From: an uncultured Eubacteriales bacterium
GTDB lineage: Bacteria; Bacillota; Clostridia; Christensenellales; Aristaeellaceae
Direction of reading: 5' to 3'
DNA length: 64,000 nt
Assembly (NCBI GenBank): GCA_902765395.1
Contig: CACWZP010000013.1
Location: forward strand, 16,877 to 80,876
Made by a program: the position numbers and the translations under genes
In this document: positions 12,802-53,357 of the stretch, one piece after another
How positions within the stretch are numbered: position 1 is the first letter of the stretch
Layout: each line of letters begins with the position of its first letter
The notes under the pieces: generated by a model
What the model saw: only the letters and a program-made list of their open reading frames with translations
Database searches by the model: none
What the model was told of the DNA's origin: nothing

Positions 12802-12866
12802 ATAACTACAAGATTAGTTTTTTCTAACCTTGTAGTTATATTACACTAACTTGTTCGCTCTGTCAA
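12802..12866 (-). promoter_or_regulatory. Promoter with TTAG-N6-CTAA operator (GLUG/ZinT-like gene)
   Basis: On the minus strand, TTGACA (12866-12861) and TATAAT-like TAATAT (12843-12838) are 17 bp apart. Directly downstream is a dyad at 12802-12839 whose outer arms ATAACTACAAG / CTTGTAGTTAT are perfect and whose core is TTAG (12814-12817), six T, CTAA (12824-12827). The core matches boxes in front of other genes in this window. Its position between the -10 box and the gene suggests repression. Confidence 0.75.
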
Positions 12867-12891
12867 TGCGTGCCGGGCAATCTGGCCAATA

Positions 12892-13614
12892 TCAGACAAT
12901 CTCCCGCTTCCTCGCCAGCTTCATGGTCAGCAGCAGGCCGGCCATCATCCACATATTGCCGATGCTCAGCCATGCGGCGGTCAGGGCATTGCGCAGGGCC
13001 GTCTCCGGCGCCAGCTTCAGCAGCATGGTCAGCCCCTGGCCCACGGGCATGCAGAACACCCAGCACCAGCGGGGATAGGGCGTCAGGCCCCTGGCAAACG
13101 CGGCGATCTGCGCGGCGGAGTGGATGCCCCAGAAGATGAAGAACAGGATCATCGCGGGCAGCAGGAAGTACAGTCCGAAGCGCCAGGACAGCTCCAGGGC
13201 GTTCTCCGGGCTCACCCGGGCCAGGTGCTTGTACACGTATACGCAGGCCAGGCATGGCACGTGCACGCCGCAGGCGGCGAAGATCAGATAGCCGAAGATG
13301 CCGCTGCGGTAGATGTGCGCCAGGCGCCTGGAGCCCTGGACGATCAGGCGGTAGACGGCGAAAAAGCACAGCCCCTCCAGCGCTATGCCGATCATCCCCA
13401 GCATCGCCGACCAGAAGATGCGGCTGTCGGACAGGTTCACATAGGCGGAGAGGAAGCCCTCCAGCCCCGACTTGGAGGCGTCGTGCACGCCCCAGCCCAG
13501 CAGCATGTCCCCCGCCATCACCATGGCGCCCGCCAGAAGGCCGATGATCATCAGCTTGCGGATACGCGGCCAGTCGAGGGCGCCGTCGATGCCGATGTCG
13601 TTGTAGCTGCTCAT
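12892..13614 (-). CDS. Polytopic membrane protein, DUF6796-like (second of two paralogues)
   Basis: A 240-aa protein with about seven hydrophobic segments (LMIIGLLAGAMVMAGDMLLG, MLGMIGIALEGLCFFAVYRL and others) and no catalytic motif. It starts MSSYNDIG at 13614 after GTGAGGAGGGATACC. Its C-terminal half (PYPRWCWVFCMP and SIGNMWMMAGLLL) resembles the C-terminus of the neighbouring 13626 product (PLPRWACVFNIL and GFGNWAGAAMFL). The pair therefore arose by duplication and lies in one operon with an 11-bp gap. Function unknown. Confidence 0.75.
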   Translation of the reverse strand: MSSYNDIGIDGALDWPRIRKLMIIGLLAGAMVMAGDMLLGWGVHDASKSGLEGFLSAYVNLSDSRIFWSAMLGMIGIALEGLCFFAVYRLIVQGSRRLAHIYRSGIFGYLIFAACGVHVPCLACVYVYKHLARVSPENALELSWRFGLYFLLPAMILFFIFWGIHSAAQIAAFARGLTPYPRWCWVFCMPVGQGLTMLLKLAPETALRNALTAAWLSIGNMWMMAGLLLTMKLARKREIV

Positions 13615-13625
13615 GGTATCCCTCC

Positions 13626-14246
13626 TCACAAGAGAAAAAACAGCCCCAGGAACATGGCCGCTCCCGCCCAGTTTCCAAAGCCGCCCACGCGAAGCGGCAG
13701 CATCGCCAGCATCAGGGGCAGTATGTTGAACACGCAGGCCCAGCGGGGCAGCGGTGTCGCACCCGAGACCACCGCCGCGAAAAGGGCCGCGCCGAAGACC
13801 AGGAAGCCCAGATAGCACGCGATCATGGTGACCGATGTCTTTTTGAAGAACTCGTTGATGATGTCCAGGGCCTCCTGGGTGCGGCCCAGCCGGACGTACA
13901 GCCATTCCGGCGCGCCGCAGAACACGTGGTGGGCCATGCCGAAGGTGAACACCAGGGCGCAGCCCGCCCGCATCAGCGCGGCGCAGGCGGTCGAATACGG
14001 CCGCATCCAGTCGCACAGCGCCATGTATCCGAAGAAGAACATGCACATGGCCAGGCAGCCCAGCAGCATGGCCATCAGCGGCCGGCGCAGCGACATGCCC
14101 TCAAAGGCCCCGGAGAGCTTTGAGTTGTCCTTCATGTCCTCAAAGCGGAAGCGGCCGTTGGGCAGGTAGGTCATCAGGCAGTCGGTGAACCCGCAGAGCA
14201 GGTGCCCGGCCACGGCGAGCAAAAGCAGCGCCTTCATTTCAGTCAT
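13626..14246 (-). CDS. Polytopic membrane protein, DUF6796-like (first of two paralogues)
   Basis: A 206-aa membrane protein with about six hydrophobic segments, starting MTEMKALLLLAVAGHLLCGF. It shares the pattern PRW(A/C)-V-F near the C-terminus and a final GN-W-M segment with the 12892 product, but is about 35 residues shorter. It sits 41 bp downstream of the methyltransferase at 14288, so the three may be one transcript. I know of no biochemical role for the family. Confidence 0.72.
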   Translation of the reverse strand: MTEMKALLLLAVAGHLLCGFTDCLMTYLPNGRFRFEDMKDNSKLSGAFEGMSLRRPLMAMLLGCLAMCMFFFGYMALCDWMRPYSTACAALMRAGCALVFTFGMAHHVFCGAPEWLYVRLGRTQEALDIINEFFKKTSVTMIACYLGFLVFGAALFAAVVSGATPLPRWACVFNILPLMLAMLPLRVGGFGNWAGAAMFLGLFFLL

Positions 14247-14287
14247 TCAACTCACGCCCCCTTCACAGTGTCGCGCATCATCTGTTT

Positions 14288-14911
14288 TCATTTCCGGGCA
14301 AGTACCGCAATCCAGGGTTTTGCCGGGTGATGTTCGACCGTCACTTCGGAGAAGCCCGCCGCCCTCAGCGCCGCTTCGATGCGGTCAGCGGTGTGGGTCT
14401 TCATGCCGTCGATGATCTTCTCGAATTTCAGGCCCGCGGCGTCCGTGCCGTCGGATTCGTTGCAGATCAGGAACCAGCCGCCGGGCTTGAGCACCTTCGC
14501 CACCTGTCCGAAGCACCTCTCCAGGCCCGGCCAGAAGTAGATGGTCTCAAAGGCCGTGGCCAGGTCGAAGGGCGCCTCGGGCAGGCGCAGGTCGGACACA
14601 TCCCCCTGCCGCACGTCGCAGCGCCCGTCGGCGATCCCGTCCCGGTTGTATTCCCGCGCCTTTTCAACGGAAAGGGCGGAATAGTCGATGGCGGTCACGT
14701 GCGCCTTCGGATACCTTTTCAGCAGCTCGCCCGCGTTCCGGCCGCCGCCGCAGCCCAGGTCAACCGCCCGCGCCGGTTCGATTTCCGGCAAATGCGCAAG
14801 CCCCCAGTCCGCCATCCTGGCGTGCCCTGAATTCATGCCGTTCAACATCAGCTTCCCCAGGAAGCCCTCCGGCTTTCGCGTCTGGCTCACATAGTCCCTG
14901 AACAGTCCCAT
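14288..14911 (-). CDS. Class I SAM-dependent methyltransferase
   Basis: A 207-aa soluble enzyme with a Rossmann fold. Motif I is AVDLGCGGGRN (about residues 48-58), the acidic loop VTAIDYSALSVEKA, motif II RQGDVSDLRLPEAPFDLATA and post-motif LKPGGWFLICNESDG. It resembles UbiE/type-11 methyltransferases acting on small molecules; the substrate is not evident. AAAGGAGG precedes the ATG. It heads a probable operon with the two DUF6796-like genes. The upstream region holds TTAG-N6-TTGA, only a weak match to the operator seen elsewhere. Confidence 0.85.
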   Translation of the reverse strand: MGLFRDYVSQTRKPEGFLGKLMLNGMNSGHARMADWGLAHLPEIEPARAVDLGCGGGRNAGELLKRYPKAHVTAIDYSALSVEKAREYNRDGIADGRCDVRQGDVSDLRLPEAPFDLATAFETIYFWPGLERCFGQVAKVLKPGGWFLICNESDGTDAAGLKFEKIIDGMKTHTADRIEAALRAAGFSEVTVEHHPAKPWIAVLARK

Positions 14912-15036: not shown

Positions 15037-15963
15037 TCAGTTCGCCCGCCATTGCGCGAGCGCCTCTTTCAGCCGCCTGTCGATGTCGATCCGGGTCTGG
15101 CGGCATTCCTTCGGATGCTCCCTGCCGGACCGGAACATCATGGACACCAGCAGGCCGGAGCCCACCGGCAGCATCATCTTCAGCAGGGACTCCGGGAAGG
15201 CGAAGTGGGTGCCGCGCTCGTAGAGCCAGCTCTCGTGGGTGCACGCGTGGGGCAGGCTGTCCAGCCGCGCCTGCATCCTGCGGATGTAGCGGCAGGTGTC
15301 CCATAGCACGTCGTCCTCCGCGCCGATGAAGACCAGCTTCCCGCGGATGTTCTCCACCCGGATGCGTTCCTCCTCGCGGATGGGGTGCCTGCGCTCGGAT
15401 TCGTCGAACAGCTTTCGGGACGCGACCCGGTCGCCGCCCGCCCTGGCCTCCTCCTGGATCTTTTGCCAGTACTCCGGGTGGCGATAGGCATAGGGCAGGT
15501 ACGGCAGCGGCTTTCCCTGCCAGGTCACCGTGGATTCGCCGTCGCCGGGGCGCTCCGTCGCGCCGTCCTTGCCGTCGCGGTAGAAGGCCTCCATCACGAA
15601 GTCAGACGGCGATATGGCCACAGTCAGCGTAAACTCCGGATAGTGCGCGGCGGCCAGCAGCGCCAGCATGCCCGTGGTGGACGCGCCGACGACGCCGAAC
15701 GCACGGCAGCCCCGGGCCTTCATGAAGGCAATCGCCCTGCCGAAGCGCTCCAGCGGATAGCTGTGGTGCCCGTAGTCCTTCTTTTCCGGCGACATGGCCA
15801 TCACGTGGATGCCCTGGCGGTTCAGCCACTTCGCTCCGCAGGAGGCCATGCGGTCCTCCGAGCTGTCGCCCAGCATGAGGATCATGCCCCTGTCGCCGCC
15901 GGCAGCCGGGTACCACGCGCCGTTGAAGCCGTCGGAATCCACCCGAAACACCTGTCTTTTCAT
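15037..15963 (-). CDS. Alpha/beta hydrolase, BAAT/acyl-thioesterase C-terminal type
   Basis: A 308-aa hydrolase with nucleophile elbow GVVGASTTGMLALLAA. The likely Asp lies in LVFIGAEDDVLWDT and the His in YERGTHFAFP. It looks like the BAAT C-terminal catalytic domain, which cleaves or transfers acyl groups from thioesters. It ends EHPKECRQTRIDIDRRL, echoed in the 44667 product (RHPRECAGDREALRKAL), so the two are paralogues. The start MKRQVFRV at 15963 follows GGAGGGAAGAG. Its promoter carries a TTAG-type operator, as does that of its paralogue's operon. Confidence 0.8.
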   Translation of the reverse strand: MKRQVFRVDSDGFNGAWYPAAGGDRGMILMLGDSSEDRMASCGAKWLNRQGIHVMAMSPEKKDYGHHSYPLERFGRAIAFMKARGCRAFGVVGASTTGMLALLAAAHYPEFTLTVAISPSDFVMEAFYRDGKDGATERPGDGESTVTWQGKPLPYLPYAYRHPEYWQKIQEEARAGGDRVASRKLFDESERRHPIREEERIRVENIRGKLVFIGAEDDVLWDTCRYIRRMQARLDSLPHACTHESWLYERGTHFAFPESLLKMMLPVGSGLLVSMMFRSGREHPKECRQTRIDIDRRLKEALAQWRAN

Positions 15964-16031
15964 CGCTCTTCCCTCCATGTCACCCGTCGACGCCGTGTAT
16001 CCGCGGAATGCGCCGGACGCCTCAGCCTGTG

Positions 16032-16076
16032 TTAGTTTACACTTACTATCATACACTTCACCTTGTTTACTTTCAA
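16032..16076 (-). promoter_or_regulatory. Promoter with TTAG-N6-CTTA operator (BAAT hydrolase gene)
   Basis: Minus strand TTGAAA (16076-16071), 17-bp spacer, TATGAT (16053-16048). Immediately downstream is the box TTAG-TTTACA-CTTA at 16032-16045. The spacing matches that at 39944 and 53313. Confidence 0.7.
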
Positions 16077-16212: not shown

Positions 16213-16240
16213 TTTCGCACATCCGCGGCCCGGAGCCGGA

Positions 16241-33505: not shown

Positions 33506-33535
33506 GATGACACTTCCTTTCTCAAATCCCCCTCG

Positions 33536-33610
33536 ATTATACCATCATTATGACGCTGTGTCAATATGTGATTCCATCATATTGACGCAGCGTCATAATT
33601 GTGGTACACT
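33536..33610. promoter_or_regulatory. Divergent TetR/MATE promoters with paired operators
   Basis: Minus promoter (TetR): TTGACA (33564-33559), 17 bp, TATAAT (33541-33536). Plus promoter (MATE): TTGACG (33582-33587), 17 bp, TACACT (33605-33610). Palindrome TGACGCTGTGTCA (33551-33563) covers the minus -35 region and TGACGCAGCGTCA (33583-33595) the plus -35 region. The whole block from 33548 is itself a long inverted repeat. Confidence 0.82.
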
Positions 33611-33644
33611 GTATGCATCTGATGGAAGACAGAGGGATCGAAGC

Positions 33645-35898: not shown

Positions 35899-35994
35899 AT
35901 TATAGCCCCCTGCCGCAGGGAATCAAGCTATGTTTGTTAAAACTAACGCAGATGTATTGAAGTGAGTCGGCCAAAGCAGTAAAATATAACTAAC
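35899..35994. promoter_or_regulatory. Divergent promoters with TTAG-like boxes (35848 and 36015 genes)
   Basis: Minus: TTGATT (35926-35921), 16 bp, TATAAT (35904-35899). Plus: TTGAAG (35957-35962), 17 bp, TAAAAT (35980-35985). A box TTTG-TTAAAA-CTAA (35933-35946) lies between them, one base off the TTAG-N6-CTAA core. GTAAA-ATATAA-CTAAC (35979-35994), a looser match, overlaps the plus -10 box. Confidence 0.6.
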
Positions 35995-36014: not shown

Positions 36015-36932
36015 ATGAGTCTGAAATATGAGGTTTTGAAAGGGCTGGTGAAGGCGATCGGCCTCAAGAACATGTGGGTGGGCCGGAGCACCGAAGACCT
36101 TCTGGAGAACCGGCGCAGGCAGAACGCCCGGAACAAGATCCCGGTTTTACACGACGACGACTTTGAGATCAGCCAGATCGAGGTCATGGGCTGCCCGGTG
36201 CTGCGGCTGATCCACCGGCGGCCCGCCAAGCGCGCCAACCTGTTCATCATCGGCGGCGGCATGATCAGCGCGCCGCGGCCTGGCGCGGTCAAAAAGGCGC
36301 TGCGCTTTGCCCGGGAGACCGGGCTGGACGTGTTCGTCCCCTACTATCCCCTCTGCACGGACTACCCGCTGACCAGGGCCTACGCAATGATCCACGCCAC
36401 CTATCGCCAGATGCTGAAGGACTATCCCCCGGAGCGCATATCCGTGCTGGGCACGTCCTCCGGCGGCAACCTGGCGCTGGGCATGGTGCCCTACATCAAC
36501 GACGGCCACGGCGACACCCCGATGCCCGGCCACATCATGGCCATCTCCCCCGGCACCTGCGTGGACACGGAGGAGGAGTGGCAGCGGATGCTGGCGCTGG
36601 ACAGGCTGGACGTGGCCATCCCGGCGCAGTACATGAAGACCGCCGAGGACATCATGCGCCACGGCGACGACAGCGTGCCGGATTACATGATCTGGCTGCA
36701 AAAGGGCAACTTCACGAACTGTCCGAAGGTGACCTTCATCTACGGCAGCCACGAGACGCTCTACGCCTGCGCGCCGTCCTTCGAGGCGGCCATGAAGCGC
36801 TGCGGCGTGGATTACGAGATGATCGTCGGCGAGGGCATGTTCCACTGCTACCCGGTTTTCCCGGTATGCAGGGAGGCCAAAGAGGGCTGGGACATGATGG
36901 TGCGCAAGATGAAAGAATGGCAGGGTGAATGA
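36015..36932 (+). CDS. Alpha/beta hydrolase, hormone-sensitive-lipase/steryl-acetylhydrolase-like
   Basis: A 305-aa hydrolase. The oxyanion region is LFIIGGGMISAPRPG (in place of HGG), the nucleophile elbow VLGTSSGGNLALG, the acid residue near TFIYGSHETLYACA and the His near GEGMFHCYPVF. It probably hydrolyses esters of small lipophilic molecules. AAGGAAAGG precedes the ATG. The stop is 1 bp from the PanE-like start, so the two genes form an operon. Its promoter carries TTAG-type boxes. Confidence 0.87.
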   Translation: MSLKYEVLKGLVKAIGLKNMWVGRSTEDLLENRRRQNARNKIPVLHDDDFEISQIEVMGCPVLRLIHRRPAKRANLFIIGGGMISAPRPGAVKKALRFARETGLDVFVPYYPLCTDYPLTRAYAMIHATYRQMLKDYPPERISVLGTSSGGNLALGMVPYINDGHGDTPMPGHIMAISPGTCVDTEEEWQRMLALDRLDVAIPAQYMKTAEDIMRHGDDSVPDYMIWLQKGNFTNCPKVTFIYGSHETLYACAPSFEAAMKRCGVDYEMIVGEGMFHCYPVFPVCREAKEGWDMMVRKMKEWQGE

Positions 36933-36933
36933 T

Positions 36934-37932
36934 ATGAAGGTATTGGTTTACGGCTCGGGCGTCATCGGAAGCTATCTCGCCCACGTGCTCATGAGTGCCG
37001 GAAACGACGTGACCGTGCTGGCCCGGGGCCGGTGGAAGGAACAGCTCGAGGCCCACGGATTGAAGATCCGCCACCACTTGCAGCACAGGGAGACGCTGGA
37101 CCGTCCGAAGGTCATCGGGGACATCTCCGAGGGCGACAGCTATGACGCGGTGTTCGCCGTGATGCCCTACAACAAAATCGGCGCGATTCTGGAGCCGCTG
37201 GCCGCGGTGCGCGCACCTCTGGTGGTGCTGGTGGGCAACAACATGAATCCCGCCGCGATGGAGAAGGCCATCCTCGGCGGGACTGTCTGCGAAAAGCAGG
37301 TGTTGTTCGGCTTCCAGGTGACTGCGGGAAAGCGCGACACGGAGAAGGGGCTGCTGGTCTGTGAACGCCTTGGCGCGGGCAACATGGACCTCGGCGGCCT
37401 GCACCGACTGCCGGACGAGGCGACCCGCGCAAAGCTGAACACAGCCTTCGCCGGCACCGGCTACAGGCTCAACTGGCAGCCGGACATGGAGGCCTACCTG
37501 ATCTGCCACCTGGCGGCAATCCTGCCCATCGGCTACCTTGCCTATGCCTGCAATGGGGACATGCGCGCCTCCACCGGCGCCCAGCGCAGGCTGATGCGGC
37601 TGGCCTCCCGCGAGGCCTACGCCATGCTCAAGGCCCAGGGCGTTCCCATACTGCCCGCGGGCGACGACCGCTACTACGCCCCCGGCCCGCGCGGAAGGCT
37701 GATGCAGTTCCTCTATTTCGTCATGGCGAAGAACAAGACCATCAGCGACCTGGTGGCCTGTGAGCACTGCCGCAACGCCTACGAGGAGATGAAGATGCTG
37801 GACGCGGCCTTCATGGAGGTCGCCGCCCGGGCGCCCGGCGCGCCCATGCCCCACTGGCACGAACTGCGGGCGCAGATGCCCGGCTGGGACGAGGTGCGCC
37901 GGCGCTACGGGCGCGTCACTTCTTCACGCTGA
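36934..37932 (+). CDS. Ketopantoate reductase (PanE/ApbA) family protein
   Basis: A 332-aa NADP-dependent reductase. The N-terminal Rossmann motif VLVYGSGVIGSYLAHVL is followed by TVLARGRWKEQLEAHGL, with Arg contacts expected for NADP, and a C-terminal helical domain. Divergent members of this family occur outside pantothenate synthesis, and here the gene is coupled to a hydrolase, so the true substrate may be another 2-keto or hydroxy compound. ATG at 36934 has AGGG upstream; a GTG at 36925 is an alternative. The 3' end overlaps the convergent gene at 37916 by 17 bp. Confidence 0.82.
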   Translation: MKVLVYGSGVIGSYLAHVLMSAGNDVTVLARGRWKEQLEAHGLKIRHHLQHRETLDRPKVIGDISEGDSYDAVFAVMPYNKIGAILEPLAAVRAPLVVLVGNNMNPAAMEKAILGGTVCEKQVLFGFQVTAGKRDTEKGLLVCERLGAGNMDLGGLHRLPDEATRAKLNTAFAGTGYRLNWQPDMEAYLICHLAAILPIGYLAYACNGDMRASTGAQRRLMRLASREAYAMLKAQGVPILPAGDDRYYAPGPRGRLMQFLYFVMAKNKTISDLVACEHCRNAYEEMKMLDAAFMEVAARAPGAPMPHWHELRAQMPGWDEVRRRYGRVTSSR

Positions 37933-38629
37933 CCCACAGGCCGTTGTCCAGCGTGGCGAGCTCGTATTGTGCGGCAATGGGGTTCCGGTCGCCCACGATG
38001 CAGTAGTCGCAGCGCTCCGAGGTGCAGCAGGTGCCCTCCCGGATCAGCGTCGCGTGCAGCTTTTGCATGGCCATGTGGTCGCAGTTGCACATCACGGGCA
38101 GCACGTCCTCCATGTGGTGGCGCTTGGCGAACTCCGCGTTCGGGCACTGGGTGAAGCAGTAGCGGACGGCGCAGTTTGCCCTGTCATAGGTGTATCCCTG
38201 CATCCGAAAGGACGCCGGGAACGGCCCGATCTCCTTCACGCGCTGGTCGGCGGCCTTCTTGAACGCCAGGTTCGCGATGCGGTTGTCCAGGCCGCGGTTC
38301 AGGTTGAACAGCTTTCCCAGCGCCTCAAACCCGCCCATGAAGCAGTTGAATACATCCTGCTGCACGTCCGCAAGCGGCGGCTTGTCCGGGATCACGGCGT
38401 ACCAGGCGAAGATCAGTATGGGGTCATAGATGCTGGCCGTCATCTTCACGCCGCCCAGGGCCGGCTCGCCCTCCAGAAACGCGCAGTATTGCAGCTGTAT
38501 CTTCTCCCACAACTTCTGAGCCGTGGGCTCGTCGTAATACCGGCGCAGCAGCGTTTGCACACACTTCTTCGCCTTCTTCGTGTAGATCGCGTGCTTGGAG
38601 CGATCGAAGGGCAGATCCTTTTCTCTCAT
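37916..38629 (-). CDS. L-2-amino-thiazoline-4-carboxylic acid (ATC) hydrolase-like protein
   Basis: A 237-aa protein of the ATC-hydrolase family. It carries several Cys pairs near the C-terminus (YCFTQCPNAEFAKRHHMEDV, MCNCDHMAMQKLHATL, EGTCCTSERCDYCIVGD). The family's characterised member opens a thiazoline ring to make cysteine, but many gut homologues are of unknown substrate. It is last in an operon methyltransferase, small membrane protein, ATC hydrolase, behind a double-operator promoter. A second family member at 46301 is also paired with a methyltransferase. Confidence 0.8.
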   Translation of the reverse strand: MREKDLPFDRSKHAIYTKKAKKCVQTLLRRYYDEPTAQKLWEKIQLQYCAFLEGEPALGGVKMTASIYDPILIFAWYAVIPDKPPLADVQQDVFNCFMGGFEALGKLFNLNRGLDNRIANLAFKKAADQRVKEIGPFPASFRMQGYTYDRANCAVRYCFTQCPNAEFAKRHHMEDVLPVMCNCDHMAMQKLHATLIREGTCCTSERCDYCIVGDRNPIAAQYELATLDNGLWVSVKK

Positions 38630-38649
38630 TTCAGTTCCAACTTCCCCTT

Positions 38650-39108
38650 TCAGATGAGCGTCACGATCCCGGCCACCACGGTGGCGCCGACGATCCAGAC
38701 GGCCGTGAGGATCCCCCGCTTTTTCAGCATCTGCGGCCAGGTCTGCACGAAGGGAATGTCCTCCGTGCCCGGGATGACCCAGAAGGCGCTGTGGCCCACC
38801 CACAGCCGGTCGATCACGATGCCGTCGTACCAGTTCATCAGTTCCAGGAACAGCAGAGCCTGCCAGTACGCAGGCAGGAAGGCGCGGATGATCGCCACGA
38901 GCGCCGCCGCCATCACCGCGAAGAAGGCGGTCATGAAGCGCTTGCGCCGGCGGCTGACGGCCTGGCGATCCTTCAATCCCAGCGCGTATACCCTCTCCTG
39001 CACGGGCTTTGGATAGAAGAGCAGGCCGTTCAGCGCGCTGCCGCCCACGCCCAGCTTCACCATCAGCGTGAACAGGGCGCAGTACAATATCAGTTGGACG
39101 AAGATCAT
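38650..39108 (-). CDS. Small membrane protein with WVGH...PGTE motif (family copy 2)
   Basis: A 152-aa protein with four hydrophobic segments. The diagnostic loop is VIDRLWVGHSAFWVIPGTED, matched in the 52571 product by VDRLLIEEYWVGHTKAWIIP then GTE. It starts at 39108 with an ATGA overlap with the methyltransferase stop. Its place between a methyltransferase and an ATC hydrolase suggests a shared pathway at the membrane. Function unknown. Confidence 0.78.
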   Translation of the reverse strand: MIFVQLILYCALFTLMVKLGVGGSALNGLLFYPKPVQERVYALGLKDRQAVSRRRKRFMTAFFAVMAAALVAIIRAFLPAYWQALLFLELMNWYDGIVIDRLWVGHSAFWVIPGTEDIPFVQTWPQMLKKRGILTAVWIVGATVVAGIVTLI

Positions 39109-39797
39109 AGCGCCGCCTTCCTGCATCGGAAGCAGGCGATGCCTTCATATCGGGTCACTTCCGCTTCGTCATACATCTTCTCAAGCCGCGCCTTCAGGCT
39201 CGCCTCGGTCTCGTAGGGCGGCGTGAAGTAGCCCTTGGGCTGGTAGAGGTGCTTGATGAACCAATCCGTGCGGGCGCAGCCGCCTTTGATATAAAAGCAG
39301 CCGCAGAAGGTGCCGCCGGGCCTGAGCACCCGGAAGGTCTCGCGCCATGCCGCCTCCTTGTCCGGGAAGGCGTGAAAGCCGTTCAGGGACAGCACCGCGT
39401 CGAAACTGGCGTCGTCGAAGGGCAGCGCGCCCACGTCCCCCTGCACAAAACGCACGTTTTTAATCCCCATGCGCTCCGCCCGCGCCCTGGCCGCCGACAT
39501 CATGTCCGGCGAATAGTCCAGGCAGGTGATGTCCGCGCCGGGCAGATTCCGATACACCGGCATGGTCAGCACCCCCGTGCCCACTGGCACCTCCAGCAGC
39601 TTTCCCGCGAAGCCCTCCGGCACGCCGGACAGGGCCTGCTCCAGATAGTTATAATTCATCTCGCCATCCATGTTCCACACGATCCGGCAAATCGCCTTCC
39701 CGAGGAACGTGGAATAGGTCATCATGCCGTCGTAAAAGCTGGCATGGCCCCCGGTCTGCCTGTAGGCGCTTCTGATCTCTTCGCGTCTGTCGGCCAT
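39105..39797 (-). CDS. Class I SAM-dependent methyltransferase (UbiE-like)
   Basis: A 230-aa enzyme. Motif I is KLLEVPVGTGVLTMPVYRNL, followed by DITCLDYSPDMMSAARARAE, FVQGDVGALPFDDASFDAVL (motifs II and III) and VLRPGGTFCGCFYI. The substrate is probably a small molecule or lipid. GCAGGAGGGG precedes the ATG. It leads the operon with the small membrane protein and ATC hydrolase. The leader of about 150 nt contains the duplicated regulatory module. Confidence 0.87.
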   Translation of the reverse strand: MADRREEIRSAYRQTGGHASFYDGMMTYSTFLGKAICRIVWNMDGEMNYNYLEQALSGVPEGFAGKLLEVPVGTGVLTMPVYRNLPGADITCLDYSPDMMSAARARAERMGIKNVRFVQGDVGALPFDDASFDAVLSLNGFHAFPDKEAAWRETFRVLRPGGTFCGCFYIKGGCARTDWFIKHLYQPKGYFTPPYETEASLKARLEKMYDEAEVTRYEGIACFRCRKAAL

Positions 39798-39857
39798 GGT
39801 CTCTCCCCTCCTGCAGCGTCATCCTGTCAAATCGAGGCACAGTGCCCCGATCCGTCG

Positions 39858-40009
39858 TTAGAATATGCTAACCCATTCCCATGACAAAGCCCATCCAGCA
39901 GCCGTCCTTCGCCGGTTTCGGTGCAGGATGGGCGATAAGCATGTTAGCCTTCGCTTACTATTATAGCTCATGAGAGCCAGGTTGGCAAGATGTAGTTAGC
40001 AATTGTTAA
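39858..40009 (-). promoter_or_regulatory. Triple-box promoter and leader of the methyltransferase operon
   Basis: Minus strand TTGCCA (39988-39983), 17 bp, TATAAT (39965-39960). Boxes: TTAG-CAATTG-TTAA (39996-40009, upstream of -35), TTAG-CCTTCG-CTTA (39944-39957, just after -10) and a perfect TTAG-AATATG-CTAA (39858-39871, in the leader). Between the last two is a GCCCATCC / GGATGGGC stem. The 39858-39957 part is duplicated at 53224-53326. Confidence 0.78.
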
Positions 40010-40071
40010 CACACGAACCCAATGGTGATCCCCGATTGAATCTCCCCTGAATCTAAGGCAGCCCGGATCCC

Positions 40072-41702: not shown

Positions 41703-43487
41703 TCAGATTCGAATGATCAGGTTGTTGGTGCTCATCGTGCTCAGATATTGGATGCTGCTGCTCATGCCAAACACCACGCGAATCCCCAGGTTCCGGCTGA
41801 TGTCCTCCTCATCGTGAAGCACCCTGTACTGCTCCACCAGGTTGAACGGCCTGCAATCGTCCCGGATCCGCAGGATCAGGTCCCCGTCCCGGACGAGGAT
41901 TCGCATGTCGATGGCGTGCGGCGCGCCGTCTGTAAAGCCGTGCTCGACCACATTGACGCCCAGCTCCTCGATGCAGAGCGCGAGATGGTTGGCCTTGCGC
42001 CGGTCGATCCCGTTTTCGAGGCAGAACTCCCCGGCCCGGCGCGACATATCCATGACCTCCGCCAGCGTCGTTGCGGTGATGTTCAGCTCTTTCCCCGGCG
42101 CCGCGCTGAATTCAGGGCCCAGCAGCAGCCGCTTTTCGGAGAACGTGTCGCCCCGCTTCCAGTTGTGAATATACGCCAGCGCCCCGACGAGCATGGCCGA
42201 GAGCATCACCGGCGAAGCCAGCCACACGCCCCGCCCGCCGAACAGCGCGACCATCAGCCACACCCCCGGAACCACCGCGCCGAGCTCCAGCAGGAAATTG
42301 AACAGATTGGCGGCCCGGAGCTTGCCGGTGCCCATCAGGTAGTAGACGAAGATATAGATCATCAGGCAGAGCGGCACGGTCAGGCCCAGCACCCGCGTGG
42401 CCTCCGCCGCGAGGGCCAGGGTTTCGGAATCGCCCGTCCCAAAGAATATGCCGGCGATGAAGCGGGGAAAGGCCGTCAGCAGGATCGTCGGGATGGCCGC
42501 CGTCGCGGCCCCCACGCGCACGGCCGTCTTCTGCAGCGTGTCCAGCGCCTTGCGATCCTCCTCGCCGTAGTAGATGCTGGACAGCGTCCAAACGGTATCC
42601 GCCGCGCCGAGATAGAATACCCATACCAGGGAGCTTATGGAGCGCCGCACGCCAAAGGCGGCGATATAGGCGCTGGCCACGGTCGCGGAGAGGATGTGGT
42701 TGATGGCGATTCCCGCGATGACGCTCGACAGCAGGTCGACCCCGTAGGGCGCGCCGTTGACGAGGATCGCCCCGGCCCTGCTCAACGCCCCGGCCCGCCC
42801 GCGCAGGCTGAAGCGGAGCATCCTGTTTGGGCGGAGGAAATGGGTCGAGAGCACGGCAAAATACACGGTCTGTCCCAGTGCCGTCGCCGCGCCGAGAGCA
42901 AACATACTGCCGGGGAAGAACGTGATCGCCGCCAGGTCGCCGAGGATATCCGCCGCGGTCATGGCCGCCGTCGCGACAAGGGTGCGCCGGTGATCCGAGT
43001 CAATTCCCATGTACTCGGAGAACACCTTCGCGGTGTTTTCAAACGGCAGGCCGAGGGTCATTCCCGCCAGATACTGACAGACCAGCGGGCGCAGGTGTTC
43101 GTTCGCGCCCCGCGCGCCGAGGACGACGGCAATCGGCGAAAGGCCCAGGAGCATCGCGATCCCCACCGCGACGGACAGCTCTGCGGACAGCAGCACCGCG
43201 AGGGTGAACACCTGGTTCGCCCCGTCGATATCGCCCTGGCCCGCCATCCGGGTGTACAGATTGCGGGAGCCGCCCGCGATCACGCCGCCGATCAGATAGC
43301 TCGAGACCGCCAGGGGCCAGACCAGGCTGAAAGCCGCCAGCGCGTCCACGCCGAGCGCCTTTCCGATGACGACGCCGTCCACCAGCGCGCCCACCGCCTG
43401 TGTGAAGTTCTTGCCCATATAGGCAGCCTGCGATCGCACAAACACCTTTTCTATGATCGAACGCTTCTGCCGCCTGAATGTGAACAT
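41703..43487 (-). CDS. MATE transporter fused to an RsbW-like histidine-kinase-type ATPase
   Basis: A 594-aa protein. Residues about 1-440 are a MATE-fold transporter (ALVDGVVIGKALGVDALAAF, INHILSATVASAYIAAFGVR). Residues about 465-594 are an HATPase_c_2 domain like anti-sigma kinases RsbW/SpoIIAB: N box LALCIEELGVNVVEHGF, G1 LILRIRDDCRPFN, G2 NLGIRVVFGMSSSI. There is no His phosphoacceptor. The ATPase part could phosphorylate a separate STAS-type antagonist or gate transport. The start at 43487 lacks a strong ribosome site; ATG a few codons upstream is possible. Confidence 0.85.
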   Translation of the reverse strand: MFTFRRQKRSIIEKVFVRSQAAYMGKNFTQAVGALVDGVVIGKALGVDALAAFSLVWPLAVSSYLIGGVIAGGSRNLYTRMAGQGDIDGANQVFTLAVLLSAELSVAVGIAMLLGLSPIAVVLGARGANEHLRPLVCQYLAGMTLGLPFENTAKVFSEYMGIDSDHRRTLVATAAMTAADILGDLAAITFFPGSMFALGAATALGQTVYFAVLSTHFLRPNRMLRFSLRGRAGALSRAGAILVNGAPYGVDLLSSVIAGIAINHILSATVASAYIAAFGVRRSISSLVWVFYLGAADTVWTLSSIYYGEEDRKALDTLQKTAVRVGAATAAIPTILLTAFPRFIAGIFFGTGDSETLALAAEATRVLGLTVPLCLMIYIFVYYLMGTGKLRAANLFNFLLELGAVVPGVWLMVALFGGRGVWLASPVMLSAMLVGALAYIHNWKRGDTFSEKRLLLGPEFSAAPGKELNITATTLAEVMDMSRRAGEFCLENGIDRRKANHLALCIEELGVNVVEHGFTDGAPHAIDMRILVRDGDLILRIRDDCRPFNLVEQYRVLHDEEDISRNLGIRVVFGMSSSIQYLSTMSTNNLIIRI

Positions 43488-43530
43488 AATGACGCTGAAC
43501 CACCTTGTCAGTTGTGATTGGATGCTTTCA

Positions 43531-43559
43531 TTATAATGGATTTTCGGAAGAAACACAAC
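43531..43559 (-). promoter_or_regulatory. Putative promoter of the MATE-ATPase gene
   Basis: Minus strand TTGTGT (43559-43554), 17 bp, TATAAT (43536-43531), about 45 bp before the start. The left end of the MITE-like element lies 14 bp upstream of the -35. Confidence 0.6.
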
Positions 43560-43572
43560 GGGAATCCCATAG

Positions 43573-43730
43573 AGTGTGTTTCTAAAGTCGAGGATATGCA
43601 GTTTCGAGGGTGTCAGGCTGCATTTCAAGGCGATTTTTCGAAGGCTTACTGGTTGCAAGCCGAGGAAAAGCAACACAGAAATGCAGCCTGAGACACCGAA
43701 AATGCGCGTTCGGGGTTTTAGAAACACACT
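43573..43730. mobile_element. MITE-like element (158 bp)
   Basis: Perfect 14-bp terminal inverted repeats AGTGTGTTTCTAAA (43573-43586) and TTTAGAAACACACT (43717-43730) are flanked by direct repeats ATAG (43569-43572, 43731-43734), a likely 4-bp target duplication. The arms stay complementary, imperfectly, for about 55 bp (both contain the AGGCTGCATTT / AAATGCAGCCT pair). The element encodes no transposase and must have been moved in trans. Confidence 0.75.
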
Positions 43731-44666: not shown

Positions 44667-45533
44667 TCACCAGGTGTGGTTCACCCAGTCCAGCAGCGCC
44701 TTCCGCAGCGCCTCCCTGTCCCCCGCGCATTCCCGAGGGTGGCGGCGTTCGGACTTGAACGCCATCCTGTAGATCCACGGCAGCTTCGTCAGCGCGGCGT
44801 GGCTCATGTGCTCGAAGGCCACGTGCCTGTGCGGCCAGGCGAAGCCGATGTCCGTCAGCTTCCCGTCCATCAGCGTCGCGCTCTCAAAGGACGGCCAGAC
44901 CTCGTCGTGCTTTGAGGACAGCATCAGTATCGGCGCCTGGATGCGCTCGATGGGGATGACCGTCTCCGGCGTCACGTCCTTGTTCCGGTTGAAGGTGATG
45001 ATATGCATCTCCTTTTCCCGCATGAACATCTTGACGATATCGAACGTCCGGCTGCGATAGGACGCGAAGGGCAGCTCCACGCCGCGCCAGCTCCAGCAGG
45101 ACGTGCCCGACGGCGACTTGTTCTTCCCGCCGCCGGACAGCCCTTCGCTGACGAAATGGGAGGGCACCCGGGCGATCACGCAGGACAGCTCCAGGAACAT
45201 GGACGCGGCCAGCAGCGCCATCTCGCTGCCCTTGGAGGTGCCGTCGATGCCGATCCGCCCATAGCCCTGCCGCTTCAGCCAGCCGATGGCCCTCTCCACA
45301 TACTCTACCGGCACCCGGGACAGTGCCTTCGGCGTCTGCTTTGTCCTGAACAGCGCCAGCGCCAGGGCAGGGATGCCGTTCTGATGGTAGAATTCCGCCT
45401 CCTGCCTCGTGAGCGCCATGCCGCCGTTGGACCCGGACATGACGATCAGCACCTTGTCCCTGCGACCATCCCCGGGATACAGTATCGCCTCAAAGCCCTC
45501 CGCCTGCACGGAAGTGGTCACAATCCTGTTCAT
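44667..45533 (-). CDS. Alpha/beta hydrolase, BAAT/acyl-thioesterase C-terminal type
   Basis: A 288-aa hydrolase with nucleophile elbow IGIDGTSKGSEMALLAA (the Ser-for-Cys form seen in bacterial BAAT-domain proteins), Asp near LMLSSKHDEVWPS and His in FEHMSHAAL. It ends RHPRECAGDREALRKALLDW, close to the tail of the 15037 product. Family members act on acyl-CoA or N-acyl amide bonds. The ATG overlaps the SRPBCC stop by 4 bp. Confidence 0.85.
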   Translation of the reverse strand: MNRIVTTSVQAEGFEAILYPGDGRRDKVLIVMSGSNGGMALTRQEAEFYHQNGIPALALALFRTKQTPKALSRVPVEYVERAIGWLKRQGYGRIGIDGTSKGSEMALLAASMFLELSCVIARVPSHFVSEGLSGGGKNKSPSGTSCWSWRGVELPFASYRSRTFDIVKMFMREKEMHIITFNRNKDVTPETVIPIERIQAPILMLSSKHDEVWPSFESATLMDGKLTDIGFAWPHRHVAFEHMSHAALTKLPWIYRMAFKSERRHPRECAGDREALRKALLDWVNHTW

Positions 45534-45991
45534 TCAGCGCGTCCCCCTGCGTTACCATGGTTTTTCCCCAACAGCCTTATCCACTTTCTCTGGCGATGGG
45601 CATAGAACGCCTCGGCCCACAGCCAGACAAAGGCCGTCTTCCACCCGGCGTGGATCTCCACCCGATCGGTGTACTCCGTGCGACCGTCATCCAGCGGCCT
45701 CAGCCGGATGTCGTGGTTCCACGCGGGGACGTGCTCGTTCCCCTCCCGGCTGCTGACGCCGTCCGGGTCGAACCGGACGATGTGGATCGTGTGCGTGCCG
45801 AACGGTATGCAGCCAAACAGCCGCAAGCGAAAGGCGGACGTGCCGCCGACCTCCCACGTGCATGCACCATCCCCCACCGGCTCGAAGCTGGCGAAAGGTG
45901 CGGCGATGGCTTGAAGCGTGCTCAGCTGCCTGAGCTTCTGGAAGACCGCGTCCCTGTCCGCCGGGAAAACGGAGGTCCTTTGAACGATCAT
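45530..45991 (-). CDS. SRPBCC family ligand-binding protein
   Basis: A 153-aa protein with the START/Bet v 1-like pattern: N-terminal RTSVFPADRDAVFQKL, a beta-rich middle (FRLRLFGCIPFGTHTIHIV) and the late IRLRPLDDGRTEYTDRVEIH followed by a helix FVWLWAEAFYAHRQRKW. Such proteins hold hydrophobic molecules in a deep pocket, and some are cyclases or carriers. It leads the operon with two hydrolases, so it may present a lipophilic substrate to them. The leader of about 150 nt carries a short ORF. Confidence 0.82.
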   Translation of the reverse strand: MIVQRTSVFPADRDAVFQKLRQLSTLQAIAAPFASFEPVGDGACTWEVGGTSAFRLRLFGCIPFGTHTIHIVRFDPDGVSSREGNEHVPAWNHDIRLRPLDDGRTEYTDRVEIHAGWKTAFVWLWAEAFYAHRQRKWIRLLGKNHGNAGGRAE

Positions 45992-46060: not shown

Positions 46061-46143
46061 ATGCAATCCTCCTTCAGGCGCGTCGACCGTCGACGCCTCC
46101 GGGCTCAGTGAATCCCCGAAAGGCCGTCTCTGCGCGGCAAAGG

Positions 46144-46187
46144 TTAGATAACATTAATAATCTAATCCCCTCCGTGCGATCTGTCAA
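46144..46187 (-). promoter_or_regulatory. Promoter with TTAG-type operator (SRPBCC-hydrolase operon)
   Basis: Minus strand TTGACA (46187-46182), 17 bp, TAGATT (46164-46159), then the box TTAG-ATAACA-TTAA at 46144-46157 directly after the -10. It forms part of a larger AT-rich dyad GGTTAGAT...ATCTAATCC. Confidence 0.7.
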
Positions 46188-46231: not shown

Positions 46232-46277
46232 TTGTAGTCCCGGCAGCATGAGGTATAATTGAATTAGTTATAGCTAA
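46232..46277 (+). promoter_or_regulatory. Promoter with perfect TTAG-N6-CTAA operator (46301 operon)
   Basis: TTGTAG (46232-46237), 16 bp, TATAAT (46254-46259), then TTAG-TTATAG-CTAA (46264-46277) starting 4 bp after the -10 box. It is divergent from the SRPBCC operon promoter. Confidence 0.78.
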
Positions 46278-46300
46278 GCGTCATTTGTGGGAGGTTCGCC

Positions 46301-47017
46301 ATGCACGGATATTACGCGTCGAACAGGGAAAAGTTCAAAAAGGGAATGCGCAAGCTCCTCGATCCGGTGGTGCCTGAACTGGAGGCGGCCAGCGGGAAGA
46401 AGTACGCCGAGGTATCGGAGGAGATATGGGATTACTACGATAAAAACCTTCTGGAGCGCTTTCCCTATATCGGCGGCGACAGCGTCAGCGGCACAAAGAA
46501 CTTGACCGGCGCCTATGTCTTCGTGGCCATGGGCGAGATACTGAAGCGATACGGCGCGAAGATGGAGGAGATCGGCCGCATCATGATCCTGTCCTACGAG
46601 CGCACGACGCTGAAGATGCCCGGCATCGCCCGCGCGTTGATGGGCAAGGTCTACAGGAGCCCGAAGCTGTTGAACAAAATGCTTGTGAAAAAGGACGCGA
46701 AAAACGCCGCAAACGCGGCGGCAAATCCCGGCAGCTTTGAGACGCAGACGCAGATCCCGCCCGAGGCGGGCTACGATTTCAGCTATCACAACCTGGTCTG
46801 CCCGCTTTCAGACTTCGCCAGGAAATACGGCTACGAAGCATACATGCCCTGGCTGTGCAACCTGGATTACGTGATGTTCGGCACGCTCGGCGCGCCGCTC
46901 TTTCGCGAGCACACCTGCTTCGAGGACGGCGACTACTGCGATTTCAAGCTGAAGCTGGACGCCCAGCCGCTTGCGTACTGGCCGCCCGTGTTCAGGCAGG
47001 ACAACCCCTATAAATGA
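46301..47017 (+). CDS. ATC hydrolase-like protein (second copy)
   Basis: A 238-aa protein of the L-2-amino-thiazoline-4-carboxylic acid hydrolase family. The C-terminal signature CFEDGDYCDFKLKLD and GYDFSYHNLVCPLSDFARKY with MPWLCNLDYVMFGT match the family pattern. The N-terminal half is helical (FKKGMRKLLDPVVPELEAAS). GTGGGAGG precedes the ATG. It is followed 67 bp later by a methyltransferase, the same pairing as in the 37916-39797 operon, and is behind an operator of the same type. Confidence 0.82.
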   Translation: MHGYYASNREKFKKGMRKLLDPVVPELEAASGKKYAEVSEEIWDYYDKNLLERFPYIGGDSVSGTKNLTGAYVFVAMGEILKRYGAKMEEIGRIMILSYERTTLKMPGIARALMGKVYRSPKLLNKMLVKKDAKNAANAAANPGSFETQTQIPPEAGYDFSYHNLVCPLSDFARKYGYEAYMPWLCNLDYVMFGTLGAPLFREHTCFEDGDYCDFKLKLDAQPLAYWPPVFRQDNPYK

Positions 47018-47084: not shown

Positions 47085-47723
47085 ATGACTGACAGCGCGA
47101 AGCAGAAATCGAAATCGTATTTTGACAGCCACCGAAAGTCCCGCCTCGCCCGGGGAGGGTACTGGCGGCACGACTATCGCTACCAGCTGGAGGAGATCGG
47201 CAGGATCCGGCCGGACCGGCTGATCGACATCGGCTGCGGCCCGGGGGCCTTTCTCTGCCTGGTGGAGGAGGCGTTCCCGGATATCCAGCTGAACGCGCTG
47301 GACATTTCGCCCGAAATGGTCAGCGAGACCCGGGAGCGCCTTTCCGACACAGCCATCGCCACCGTCGGGGATTCCGAGCGCATGCCCCTTGACAGCGCCC
47401 AGTATCAGGTCGTCACCTGCAACATGAGCATCCACCACTATCCCCACCCGCAGGACGCCCTGGACGAGATGTACCGCATCCTGAAACCGGGCGGGACGCT
47501 GCTTTTGAACGACATGGACTGCGTCGCGCCGATCCGGGCCGTCGCCAACTGGCTGTTCCCCCGCCTGCCCGGCGGCGACGTGAAGATGTACAATCGGGAG
47601 GAAATCGAGGGCATGGTGCGCAAAGCCGGATTCCGGAACATCCAATACCGAAAGATTTCGCCATTCTCATTCCAGTGCGTGGCGGAAAAACAGCCTGCAA
47701 ACGAGACGCTTACGCGAGCGTAA
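47085..47723 (+). CDS. Class I SAM-dependent methyltransferase
   Basis: A 212-aa enzyme. Motif I RLIDIGCGPGAFLCLVEEAF, NALDISPEMVSETRERL, STATVGDSERMPLD-type motif II and a post-motif MYRILKPGGTLLLNDMDC are all present. The HHYPHPQDALDEMYRI segment is UbiE/type-11-like. It is second in the operon with the ATC hydrolase. Its 3' end overlaps a nested dyad (GCTTACG / CGTAAGC inside CAGCCTGC / GCAGGCTG, about 47690-47745) that might stop transcription, though no T-run follows. Confidence 0.87.
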   Translation: MTDSAKQKSKSYFDSHRKSRLARGGYWRHDYRYQLEEIGRIRPDRLIDIGCGPGAFLCLVEEAFPDIQLNALDISPEMVSETRERLSDTAIATVGDSERMPLDSAQYQVVTCNMSIHHYPHPQDALDEMYRILKPGGTLLLNDMDCVAPIRAVANWLFPRLPGGDVKMYNREEIEGMVRKAGFRNIQYRKISPFSFQCVAEKQPANETLTRA

Positions 47724-51608: not shown

Positions 51609-51805
51609 CTGGCGTTCACCCCCTTCCACATCCTGTTTACTTTCGATAAACGCCCCCCCCCCGGATTCCTGCATGGCTGCCGTTTTTGTAATCAGTCCGT
51701 GCACACTTCAGGCTTCCCGTCTCTGTACGCAGGTCGACGTTCACGCCGCGGCTTATGGCCGGCATCCATCGGGGCTCTCCGGGCATCCAAAGCCTCCTGA
51801 AATCA
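51609..51805. other. Intergenic stretch with a C10 run
   Basis: No gene is recognised. A run of ten C (51653-51662) lies 45 bp upstream of the chimera's start codon; such a tract could vary in length by slippage. The remainder up to the terminator at 51806 shows no feature. Confidence 0.4.
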
Positions 51806-51844
51806 AAAAGGCGCCTGAACCCATGCGGCGTTCAAGGCGTCTTA
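51806..51844 (-). terminator. Terminator of the small-membrane-protein operon
   Basis: Arms GCGCCTGAAC and GTTCAAGGCGTC pair with one bulge, and on the minus strand the hairpin is followed by CTTTTTG. It lies about 125 bp after the stop at 51968. Confidence 0.7.
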
Positions 51845-51967
51845 TTGGCGGCTCATTCGGCCGATCGCGACCCGGCGGGCGCTCGCTAAAGAGCGCATCC
51901 GCGGCGCGTATTCGGGGATTTGGCTTCGCGGCGTCTCGCCCCGTCCAGCGGAAGCCGCGCCATCGTG

Positions 51968-52465: not shown

Positions 52466-52570
52466 GGTTTTCCCTCCCGATGTTCAATCAGTATACAAGA
52501 CCTTCCGGGGCGCGCCCCGCCCGCGTACCGCTCCAGCCGAGCGTCGTGTCCGGCCGGTTGTTCCCCATTC

Positions 52571-53065
52571 CTATCCCGGCATCAGGCACACGATCCCGGA
52601 GAGCGCGGCGGCGAATACCGCCATGCCGACCGTTCCCATCACCCATTTCTGCCGTTTGTCCTTTGCGGAAATATACGGCCTCAGATACTCGGTGCCGGGA
52701 ATGATCCAGGCCTTGGTATGCCCCACCCAATATTCTTCGATCAGAAGTCGGTCGACCAGGTTCATGATGGACAGGATCGCAAGCGACTGCCAGAAGCCGG
52801 GCACGAAGCTCCGCGTGCCGTTGATCGCGTATACGCAAGCGAGCACATAGGCCATATACCCGGGAAGGCACAGGCACCTGATGCGCACACTCCGCTTCCG
52901 GATGGCTTCCGCCGTCGTCATGACGAGCCCTATGACGCGCTCCTGCACCTTCTTGTCGTACAGATGCACCATTCCGATCGCGCCGTTCCTGATGCCGACG
53001 GCACAGACGAGCACCAGCAGAGCGCCGAGCCCGAGGCCTTCCACGATGAGTTTGATCGCAAGCAT
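52571..53065 (-). CDS. Small membrane protein with WVGH...PGTE motif (family copy 4)
   Basis: A 164-aa protein with four hydrophobic segments. LLIEEYWVGHTKAWIIPGTE is shared with the 38650 product (DRLWVGHSAFWVIPGTED). The start MLAIKLIVEG at 53065 is preferred because GGAG lies 9 bases before it; the alternative ATG at 53080 has no spaced ribosome site. It is first after a promoter that carries the duplicated TTAG module also found before the 38650 gene's operon. Function unknown. Confidence 0.75.
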   Translation of the reverse strand: MLAIKLIVEGLGLGALLVLVCAVGIRNGAIGMVHLYDKKVQERVIGLVMTTAEAIRKRSVRIRCLCLPGYMAYVLACVYAINGTRSFVPGFWQSLAILSIMNLVDRLLIEEYWVGHTKAWIIPGTEYLRPYISAKDKRQKWVMGTVGMAVFAAALSGIVCLMPG

Positions 53066-53102
53066 GATCCGGTTCTCCATTCCTGATTATATCTTGTCGG
53101 CT

Positions 53103-53204
53103 GGCGTAATCCGGGCAGCGGCTGACATCGATAATGTGGAAATCGCAGCATGGCGCGCCGCGTCCGATGGTGCTGTTGCGCCCATCCCAGTTGTCGCGAT
53201 TCAT
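53103..53204 (-). pseudogene. Possible C-terminal scrap of an ATC hydrolase
   Basis: After GGGAG and an ATG, the frame reads NSTIGRGAPCCDFHIIDV, resembling the C-terminal signature of ATC hydrolases (compare FEDGDYCDFKLKL in the 46301 product). No other part of the family is present. It lies between the operator region and the 52571 gene. The match is short and could be chance. Confidence 0.28.
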
Positions 53205-53223
53205 GGGGCGCTCCCGGTCAATA

Positions 53224-53357
53224 TTAGGCAAAACTAACCCCCATCCGTTAAGAACGCCCACCGCGCAGGTGTCTGTCTTTGACGCCGCTGCGGGATGGGC
53301 GATAGCGCCTCGTTAGTCACCGCTTACCATTATATATCGCCAGGCGCGTTTTTTCAA
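53224..53357 (-). promoter_or_regulatory. Double-box promoter and leader of the 52571-51968 operon
   Basis: Minus strand TTGAAA (53357-53352), 17 bp, TATAAT (53334-53329). Box 1 TTAG-TCACCG-CTTA (53313-53326) lies just after -10. Box 2 TTAG-GCAAAA-CTAA (53224-53237) lies in the leader. The region between, including GGATGGGCGATA, is homologous to the leader at 39858-39957. Confidence 0.78.

Follow-up and report, generated by a model that had tools for sequence, protein, structure and literature searches.

A GTTAG-N6-CTAAC palindrome that appears to connect hydrolase and methyltransferase operons to a DtxR-type metal regulon in an uncultured Eubacteriales bacterium

Introduction

The palindrome GTTAG-N6-CTAAC, referred to here as the box, recurs upstream of hydrolase and methyltransferase genes in a 64,000-nucleotide stretch of DNA from an uncultured Eubacteriales bacterium (the window; G000:C13:16877-80876, part of a 3.38-Mb genome, G000, in 53 contigs). 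A comparable system has been described in Streptococcus equi, where EqbA, a DtxR-like protein without an SH3 domain, shows Fe-, Zn- and Mn-responsive binding to the eqbB promoter, and where the palindrome proposed as its operator contains GTTAGATGTATCTAAC (PMC3672683). The DtxR and IdeR proteins of Actinobacteria recognize a 19-bp box, TTAGGTTAGSCTAACCTAA (PMC8464063, PMC10317159), and IdeR half sites are bound as a single dimer, with a proposed consensus of TTAGGNNNNCCTAA (PMC8464063). IdeR boxes that repress overlap the transcription start, the -10 element or both (PMC10317159).

The system proposed here resembles EqbA, as the latter is described rather than by comparison of sequences, in the lack of an SH3 domain, in a cysteine in the primary metal site and in the presence of GTTAG-N6-CTAAC in the proposed operator (PMC3672683); a short DtxR-family protein of this genome, P0005, and the box together show these features of the EqbA-like, SH3-less subclass. 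The description of EqbA concerns one siderophore (equibactin) locus, whereas here there are 26 sites at up to one mismatch at many promoters, often with several boxes each, and, unlike the case described there, a ligand-less paralogue (P0004) exists beside the canonical DtxR protein. TTAG-N6-CTAA corresponds to repeats 1 and 3 of TTAGGTTAGSCTAACCTAA (PMC8464063, PMC10317159) and has the half-site geometry of TTAGGNNNNCCTAA, although the spacer is freer here; a position over the -10 element or start site is common to IdeR boxes and the boxes reported here. The four-repeat TTAGGTTAGSCTAACCTAA itself was nearly absent from the window and ten further stretches (three places at up to five mismatches, the best with three), so that the boxes here are not classical IdeR boxes. 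The place closest to a full four-repeat box, with three mismatches, was L033:4617-4635 (G000:C24), before an ATC hydrolase gene. Searches of the open PMC literature listed no paper that, by its title and abstract opening, deals with this operator in Clostridia or with a ligand-less DtxR; a co-expression study in Faecalibacterium gives an ATC-hydrolase enrichment term, with no link to iron in the relevant text (PMC9674144).

We propose, with a probability of roughly 80%, that a short, SH3-less metalloregulator of the DtxR family, for which P0005 is the best candidate, binds GTTAG-N6-CTAAC as its single-dimer operator, and that this protein represses uptake genes and the operons of the window when metal is plentiful.

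Results

Linkage of the box to DtxR and iron-transport genes

An earlier reading of the window from its letters alone (the sequence-only reading) had listed ten TTAG-N6-CTAA-type boxes, all of which were recovered where it had placed them. The flanking sequence lengthens their arms, giving GTTAG-N6-CTAAC as the fuller consensus. Two sites had been missed, at 12835-12850 (one mismatch) and 35979-35994 (two mismatches), and each pairs with a listed box.

The motif was also obtained without being supplied. DtxR loci of other Firmicutes were collected with an alignment of P0004 orthologues, and the best 80 of the 226 found (L201-L280) were named, a selection that does not represent DtxR genes fairly. 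Every 5-base inverted repeat with a gap of 0-12 was then counted in 60 of the 80 (L221-L280, leaving out the 20 best-ranked; some of the 60 are close relatives of each other). GTTAG-N6-CTAAC ranked first, in 26 of 60 loci, compared with 0.2 in shuffles and 12 for the next best pattern. Boxes front FeoA and/or FeoB in Pseudoflavonifractor gallinarum (L241, where a box also fronts a methyltransferase), in a Lachnospiraceae metagenome-assembled genome (MAG; L270) and in a Bacilli MAG (L258). Loci retrieved with P0004 held 49 boxes in 21 of 30, where shuffles expect 0.45 to 1.0, and 30 MutS control loci held none. Seven boxes were found among 30 loci of P0005 type, all of them lying no more than about 50 nt upstream of the DtxR match in their locus. 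The exact pattern occurred in 59 of 80 genomes, our own included, with up to 14 sites per genome. In the family outside the genus there were 75 exact sites vs 33 for the pattern read backwards (20 genomes), and in the rest of the order 76 vs 44 (32 genomes). A lack of conservation in relatives, which the sequence-only reading had named as a reason to abandon its regulon, was therefore not observed.

In our own genome, four sites lie in an FTR1/EfeU locus on C7, which also contains a p19-like Iron_transport gene downstream of FTR1 and genes for an FtrD-like protein, a helix-turn-helix (HTH)-only AraC protein, a DtxR-like protein and an ATC hydrolase. Other sites front a ZIP/ZupT-like transporter (C1), a DUF3793 gene (C24), a ferredoxin (C4) and the canonical DtxR gene itself (C5), and two are found on C14, one at a C_GCAxxG_C_C protein and one before enolase. 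Separately on C24, the motif precedes a row of ATC hydrolase, metallo-beta-lactamase and methyltransferase genes that resembles the gene types of the window. Operators were thus present both at genes for metal or iron uptake (FTR1 and ZIP in this genome, FeoA/FeoB in three relatives) and at the regulator gene (DtxR, at 7 of 30 loci). The motif goes with genes for DtxR-family proteins and for iron transport, and the local hydrolase/methyltransferase set looks like part of a metal regulon. The regulon idea of the sequence-only reading was right in outline, but its name, a hydrolase/methyltransferase regulon, fits only the local part.

Position of the boxes relative to genes and promoters

TTAGN6CTWA gave 27 strand-matches in the window at up to one mismatch, vs a mean of 12.97 (standard deviation 4.64, largest 25) in 100 dinucleotide shuffles. 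Genome-wide, exact TTAG-N6-CTAA was found at 8 places, 4 of them in the window, and GTTAGN6CTAAC with at most one mismatch at 26, of which 9 were concentrated in the 1.9% of the genome that the window represents (P about 7e-10 assuming independent sites; a descriptive value, as sites that share a promoter depend on each other and the choice of window was post hoc).

The signal is in the position of these sites, which is intergenic, and not in their raw count. By a simple caller of open reading frames (ORFs), 23 of the 26 were intergenic, and the other three lay 46-83 nt into an ORF that was probably called with too early a start. Control palindrome GATTGN6CAATC showed the opposite pattern, with 12 of 15 located sites inside genes, one of these by its first base only (15 of its 49 sites came with a locus, and the gene position is known for those). 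The possibility that the motif would be equally frequent inside genes, which the sequence-only reading had raised against itself, was not borne out.

Promoters were modelled as sigma-70-like, TTGACA-16/18-TATAAT with at most four mismatches in all, and scored on the same strand as the presumed target gene. The 26 boxes scored differ from the 26-site genome set: they comprise the 12 window boxes and 14 from elsewhere, namely 13 of the 17 non-window genome sites plus one two-mismatch site on C4 (C2, C12, C4:400083 and C14:67509 were left out). A promoter, in some cases a weak one, adjoined 10 of the 12 window boxes and 19 of the 26 overall, compared with 257 of 2000 intergenic positions of the window drawn at random, with the strand also random, and the overlap of operator and promoter seen in DtxR/IdeR-type regulons was thus present. 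The distance from the -10 element to the start of the box is 0 to 3 nt at 16031, 39943, 46143, 46263 and 53312, and 3 nt at C24:4621 and C7:52248; two or three boxes are found at several of the promoters. Placement just after the -10 element is a repressor position, and in this respect the sequence-only reading, which had described a shared operator at such positions over several separate promoters, agrees with our results.

Palindromes of 14-16 bp over the -10 element also suit repressors of the TetR, MarR or GntR type, and the sequence-only reading had expected such a regulator. It would sense a small molecule that the hydrolases and methyltransferases produce or break down, and the window does encode a TetR protein (32885-33505), beside a MATE exporter. 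However, no box within two mismatches was found between 32800 and 33700, and in other genomes the boxes accompany DtxR and Feo/FTR1 genes (linkage to TetR genes was not searched systematically). We consider this explanation very unlikely; a short repressor of the DtxR family is the most likely reader of the boxes.

Candidate reader P0005

P0005 is a 151-residue protein (G000:C5:158756-159208) in which both DtxR-family domains, PF01325 and PF02742, score over the cut-off; beyond these it matched general HTH models only, and no SH3 domain match was found. Its location on C5 is in line with the earlier statement that the repressor is not obviously encoded in the window. The primary ligand set is conserved as D-E-H-C-E-H. 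Among solved structures, those of MntR are nearest to P0005 in sequence (best E 2.4e-19), and the MntR proteins of Bacillus and E. coli share with it the two-domain size and the aspartate as first ligand, while MntR Glu99 is replaced by a cysteine in the alignment. The MntR operator differs from GTTAG-N6-CTAAC. A cysteine is the iron-type choice and an aspartate the MntR-type (Mn) choice (PMC10317159, PMC3672683), and because P0005 has the former together with an MntR-type first ligand, its metal is not settled by sequence. On these features, P0005 appears to be the best candidate reader. Three further PF01325 matches in the genome scored below the cut-off, and a PF01325 match on C6 (L028/L039) was rejected as a DtxR protein since its best Pfam matches were MarR.

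Fur is another iron regulator that might read the boxes: one Fur-family gene scored over the cut-off (C40), and iron genes are among those of the regulon. Against this, the 3.3-kb Fur locus has no box at up to two mismatches, the de novo motif was derived from DtxR loci, and GTTAG-N6-CTAAC differs from the Fur 7-1-7 box. A role for Fur as the reader seems highly improbable.

The ligand-less paralogue P0004

The DtxR-like protein of the FTR1 locus, P0004 (L009:10110-10535; G000:C7:51109-51531), has all six ligand positions changed (R-G-C-D-T-R), and still matches MntR (2h09, E 1.4e-7). Its operon begins beside three boxes. Among the 80 named loci, 46 encode a canonical DtxR, 30 have lost the ligands (at most two of six kept, in most none) and four are in between. 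One Glu is retained in L216 and L218, the Cys position holds Glu in L212 and L219, and the L215 sequence ends before the last three ligand positions. Outside this set, L050 and L056 (cut short) and L067 and L068 (stops) were left out of alignments. The 30 ligand-less proteins and P0004 form one clade of 31 sequences with a support of 0.997. Three of the 30 loci bear Christensenella names.

Every one of the 30 ligand-less loci had at least one box at up to one mismatch, within 1 kb upstream in 28; the boxes of L209 and L225 are downstream, and the upstream DNA of these two ends early. An AraC-like HTH match directly precedes the DtxR gene in all 30, and FTR1 was found in the examined stretch of 25; of the five without it, L214 and L224 have more than 3 kb of upstream sequence. 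In orthologues of the FTR1 promoter the arms of the box look constant and the spacers vary, which is no test, as the sites were picked by their arms.

P0004 might be the main reader, alone or with the preceding HTH-only AraC protein, and sense a signal other than bound metal. The company of box, AraC-like neighbour and FTR1 at the ligand-less loci favours this, as do the three boxes at its own operon and the recognition helix, which is kept or close in the variants listed (SKASVSVA, SKACVSMA and similar, the eight commonest words covering 24 of 31 sequences). Boxes are, however, also present in 22 of the 46 canonical loci, some with five exact copies, and upstream of canonical DtxR genes, and we regard P0004 as unlikely to be the main reader. 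The HTH-only AraC protein by itself was rejected in that role: of the 50 loci without a ligand-less DtxR, 23 were boxed, and the two with an AraC match were not among them.

A more elaborate scheme is possible, although we hold it only tentatively: one operator may be read by two DtxR paralogues, one metal-sensing and one metal-blind, as a competitive switch in which metal and a second signal together set iron uptake and the hydrolase/methyltransferase programme, the metal-blind paralogue having arisen once in a set of Clostridia.

Points against a DtxR-type regulon

Several observations weigh against the proposal that P0005 or its like reads the boxes. Raw counts show no genome-wide excess: GTTAGN6CTAAC at up to one mismatch occurs 26 times vs 33 for the backwards-read control, exact TTAG-N6-CTAA 8 times vs 65, and the control GATTGN6CAATC has 49 places. 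The sequence-only reading had expected such AT-rich palindromes to be rare by chance; this was upheld in the window, where they exceed the shuffles, but not in the whole genome, and genome-wide rarity was dropped as an argument. Within the genus there were 34 exact sites vs 35 for the backwards control (28 genomes), so the excess sits in the wider family; in the stretches seen, the own-genus sites were mostly one-mismatch forms.

Linkage is also incomplete. Just 7 of 30 P0005-type loci have a box at up to one mismatch, and 24 of the 46 canonical DtxR loci, many from Faecalicoccus, Holdemanella, Allobaculum and similar genera, have none in the examined stretch. G047, an 80% complete genome, has eight exact boxes and no DtxR match with either query. 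In the wider family, the share of boxed loci was low for ATC_hydrolase (15 boxes in 8 of 30 loci, where L107 and L121 are from our own genome and L109/L120 share sites) and for BAAT_C (4 of 9), these counts meaning a box anywhere in the locus, irrespective of where it stands with respect to the gene. The window copies at 46.3 kb (L128) and 44.7 kb (L130) had no box at one mismatch. No clear metal link was seen at the sites on C2 (isomerase/aldolase), C12 (glycosyltransferase) and C26 (SAM synthetase) or at C4:400083, and the enolase on C14 is likewise without an obvious metal role. Finally, the first ligand of P0005 is the MntR-like aspartate, which leaves iron as the effector unsettled. The same-genus counts and this ligand in particular weaken the proposal slightly.

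Boxes and genes in the window

The boxes of the window and their presumed target genes are listed in Table 1.

Table 1. Boxes and associated genes in the window; mismatches are relative to GTTAG-N6-CTAAC.
Feature	Position	Strand	Remark
Box ATTAGTTTTTTCTAAC (plus strand)	12813..12828	-	9 nt past -10 of the 11049-12779 promoter
Second box GTTAGTGTAATATAAC (minus strand)	12835..12850	-	overlaps -10 TAATAT; absent from earlier list
Protein with GLUG repeat, signal-like N-terminus (by eye)	11049..12779	-	C-terminus weakly like AdcA ZinT domain, E 0.0037
Box GTAAGTGTAAACTAAC	16031..16046	-	1 nt past -10 TATGAT
BAAT_C hydrolase	15037..15963	-	start 15963 by eye from sequence
Class I methyltransferase	14288..14911	-	probably same operon as 15037..15963
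Box GTTTGTTAAAACTAAC	35932..35947	+	same 16-mer, reversed, at C24:4569; no own promoter found in sigma-70-like scoring
Weaker box GTAAAATATAACTAAC	35979..35994	+	overlaps -10; absent from earlier list
Alpha/beta hydrolase (Abhydrolase_3)	36015..36932	+	
ApbA/PanE-type reductase	36925..37932	+	probably same operon as 36015..36932
Box GTTAGCATATTCTAAC (minus strand)	39857..39872	-	perfect
Box GTAAGCGAAGGCTAAC	39943..39958	-	1 nt past -10 TATAAT
Box GTTAACAATTGCTAAC	39995..40010	-	no adjoining promoter; upstream of 39943 promoter
Class I methyltransferase	39105..39797	-	
410-aa frame, weak ATC_hydrolase C-terminus	37916..39148	-	25.8 bits, cut-off 28.1; 29.3 bits in genome search
Box ATTAATGTTATCTAAC (minus strand)	46143..46158	-	abuts -10 TAGATT; 2 mismatches
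153-aa protein, no Pfam match at E<=1	45530..45991	-	
BAAT_C hydrolase	44667..45533	-	second gene after 45530-45991
Box ATTAGTTATAGCTAAG	46263..46278	+	3 nt past -10 TATAAT; 2 mismatches
ATC_hydrolase (PF14196)	46301..47017	+	
Class I methyltransferase	47085..47723	+	probably same operon as 46301..47017
Box GTTAGTTTTGCCTAAT (minus strand)	53223..53238	-	
Box GTAAGCGGTGACTAAC	53312..53327	-	1 nt past -10 TATAAT
169-aa probable small membrane protein, no Pfam match	52571..53080	-	hydrophobic stretches by eye

The gene types that the sequence-only reading had assigned were found behind boxes for the hydrolases, methyltransferases and ATC hydrolases, for one small, probable membrane protein and for a probably secreted, weakly ZinT-like protein; its SRPBCC assignment was neither confirmed nor excluded, as 45530-45991 had no Pfam match at that threshold. 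The predicted fold of residues 366-576 of the ZinT-like protein was uninformative (pLDDT 39), and the weak AdcA match remains the sole support for that likeness. The box at 16031 is upstream of its BAAT_C gene because the gene start was read at 15963, and a genome of the same genus has the identical 16-mer near a BAAT gene (L133). The overlap of genes suggests that 37916-39148 belongs to the operon of 39105-39797. Genome-wide, four of five ATC_hydrolase copies are in box-bearing units, a count that includes the two-mismatch boxes at 46.1-46.3 kb and this presumed operon; the fifth (C1:11639) has no nearby box at up to one mismatch. Both BAAT_C copies are in box-fronted units, one of them through a two-mismatch box.

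The upstream regions 39797-40060 and 53080-53400 are alike (blastn E 4e-7), and in both an inverted repeat, CCCATCC...GGATGGG, was seen by eye between the paired boxes; perhaps they are duplicated promoter-leader cassettes. An RNA element between the boxes was considered and set aside, since no Rfam family reached its gathering score in the window.

Elsewhere in the window, the TetR repressor gene is divergent from the MATE exporter gene (32885-35018, without a box), and there are two further MatE-domain genes, one at 5009-6628 and one, with a fused HATPase_c_2 domain, at 41703-43727. An unusual 537-residue fusion of DUF4405, an FGE-sulfatase-like domain and a partial Flavodoxin_4 (25410-27023) adjoins a separate Flavodoxin_4 gene, and in a 221-residue frame at 56425-57090 a P-II domain comes after the end of an ammonium transporter.

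Discussion

If P0005 or a similar short DtxR-family protein is the reader, regulation would proceed as follows. With Fe(II), or possibly Mn or Zn, plentiful, the metal-loaded dimer would sit on boxes over the -10 element or start site and block RNA polymerase. When metal is scarce, the dimer would leave, and the FTR1 locus, the ZIP transporter, the ferredoxin, DUF3793 and the hydrolase/methyltransferase operons of the window would be expressed, the enzymes of the window presumably being needed under metal starvation.

The box would make the operator code of a metal regulon readable in DtxR-bearing Clostridia, so that candidates for metal-starvation genes can be listed by sequence alone. It places the PF14196 "ATC hydrolases", DUF3793 and the BAAT-type hydrolases with their methyltransferases in a testable context of metal limitation, and it reveals a DtxR clade that has kept its DNA-binding helix with few or no metal ligands. 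If our proposal is true, a poorly understood hydrolase/methyltransferase cluster would be tied to genes for the import of iron.

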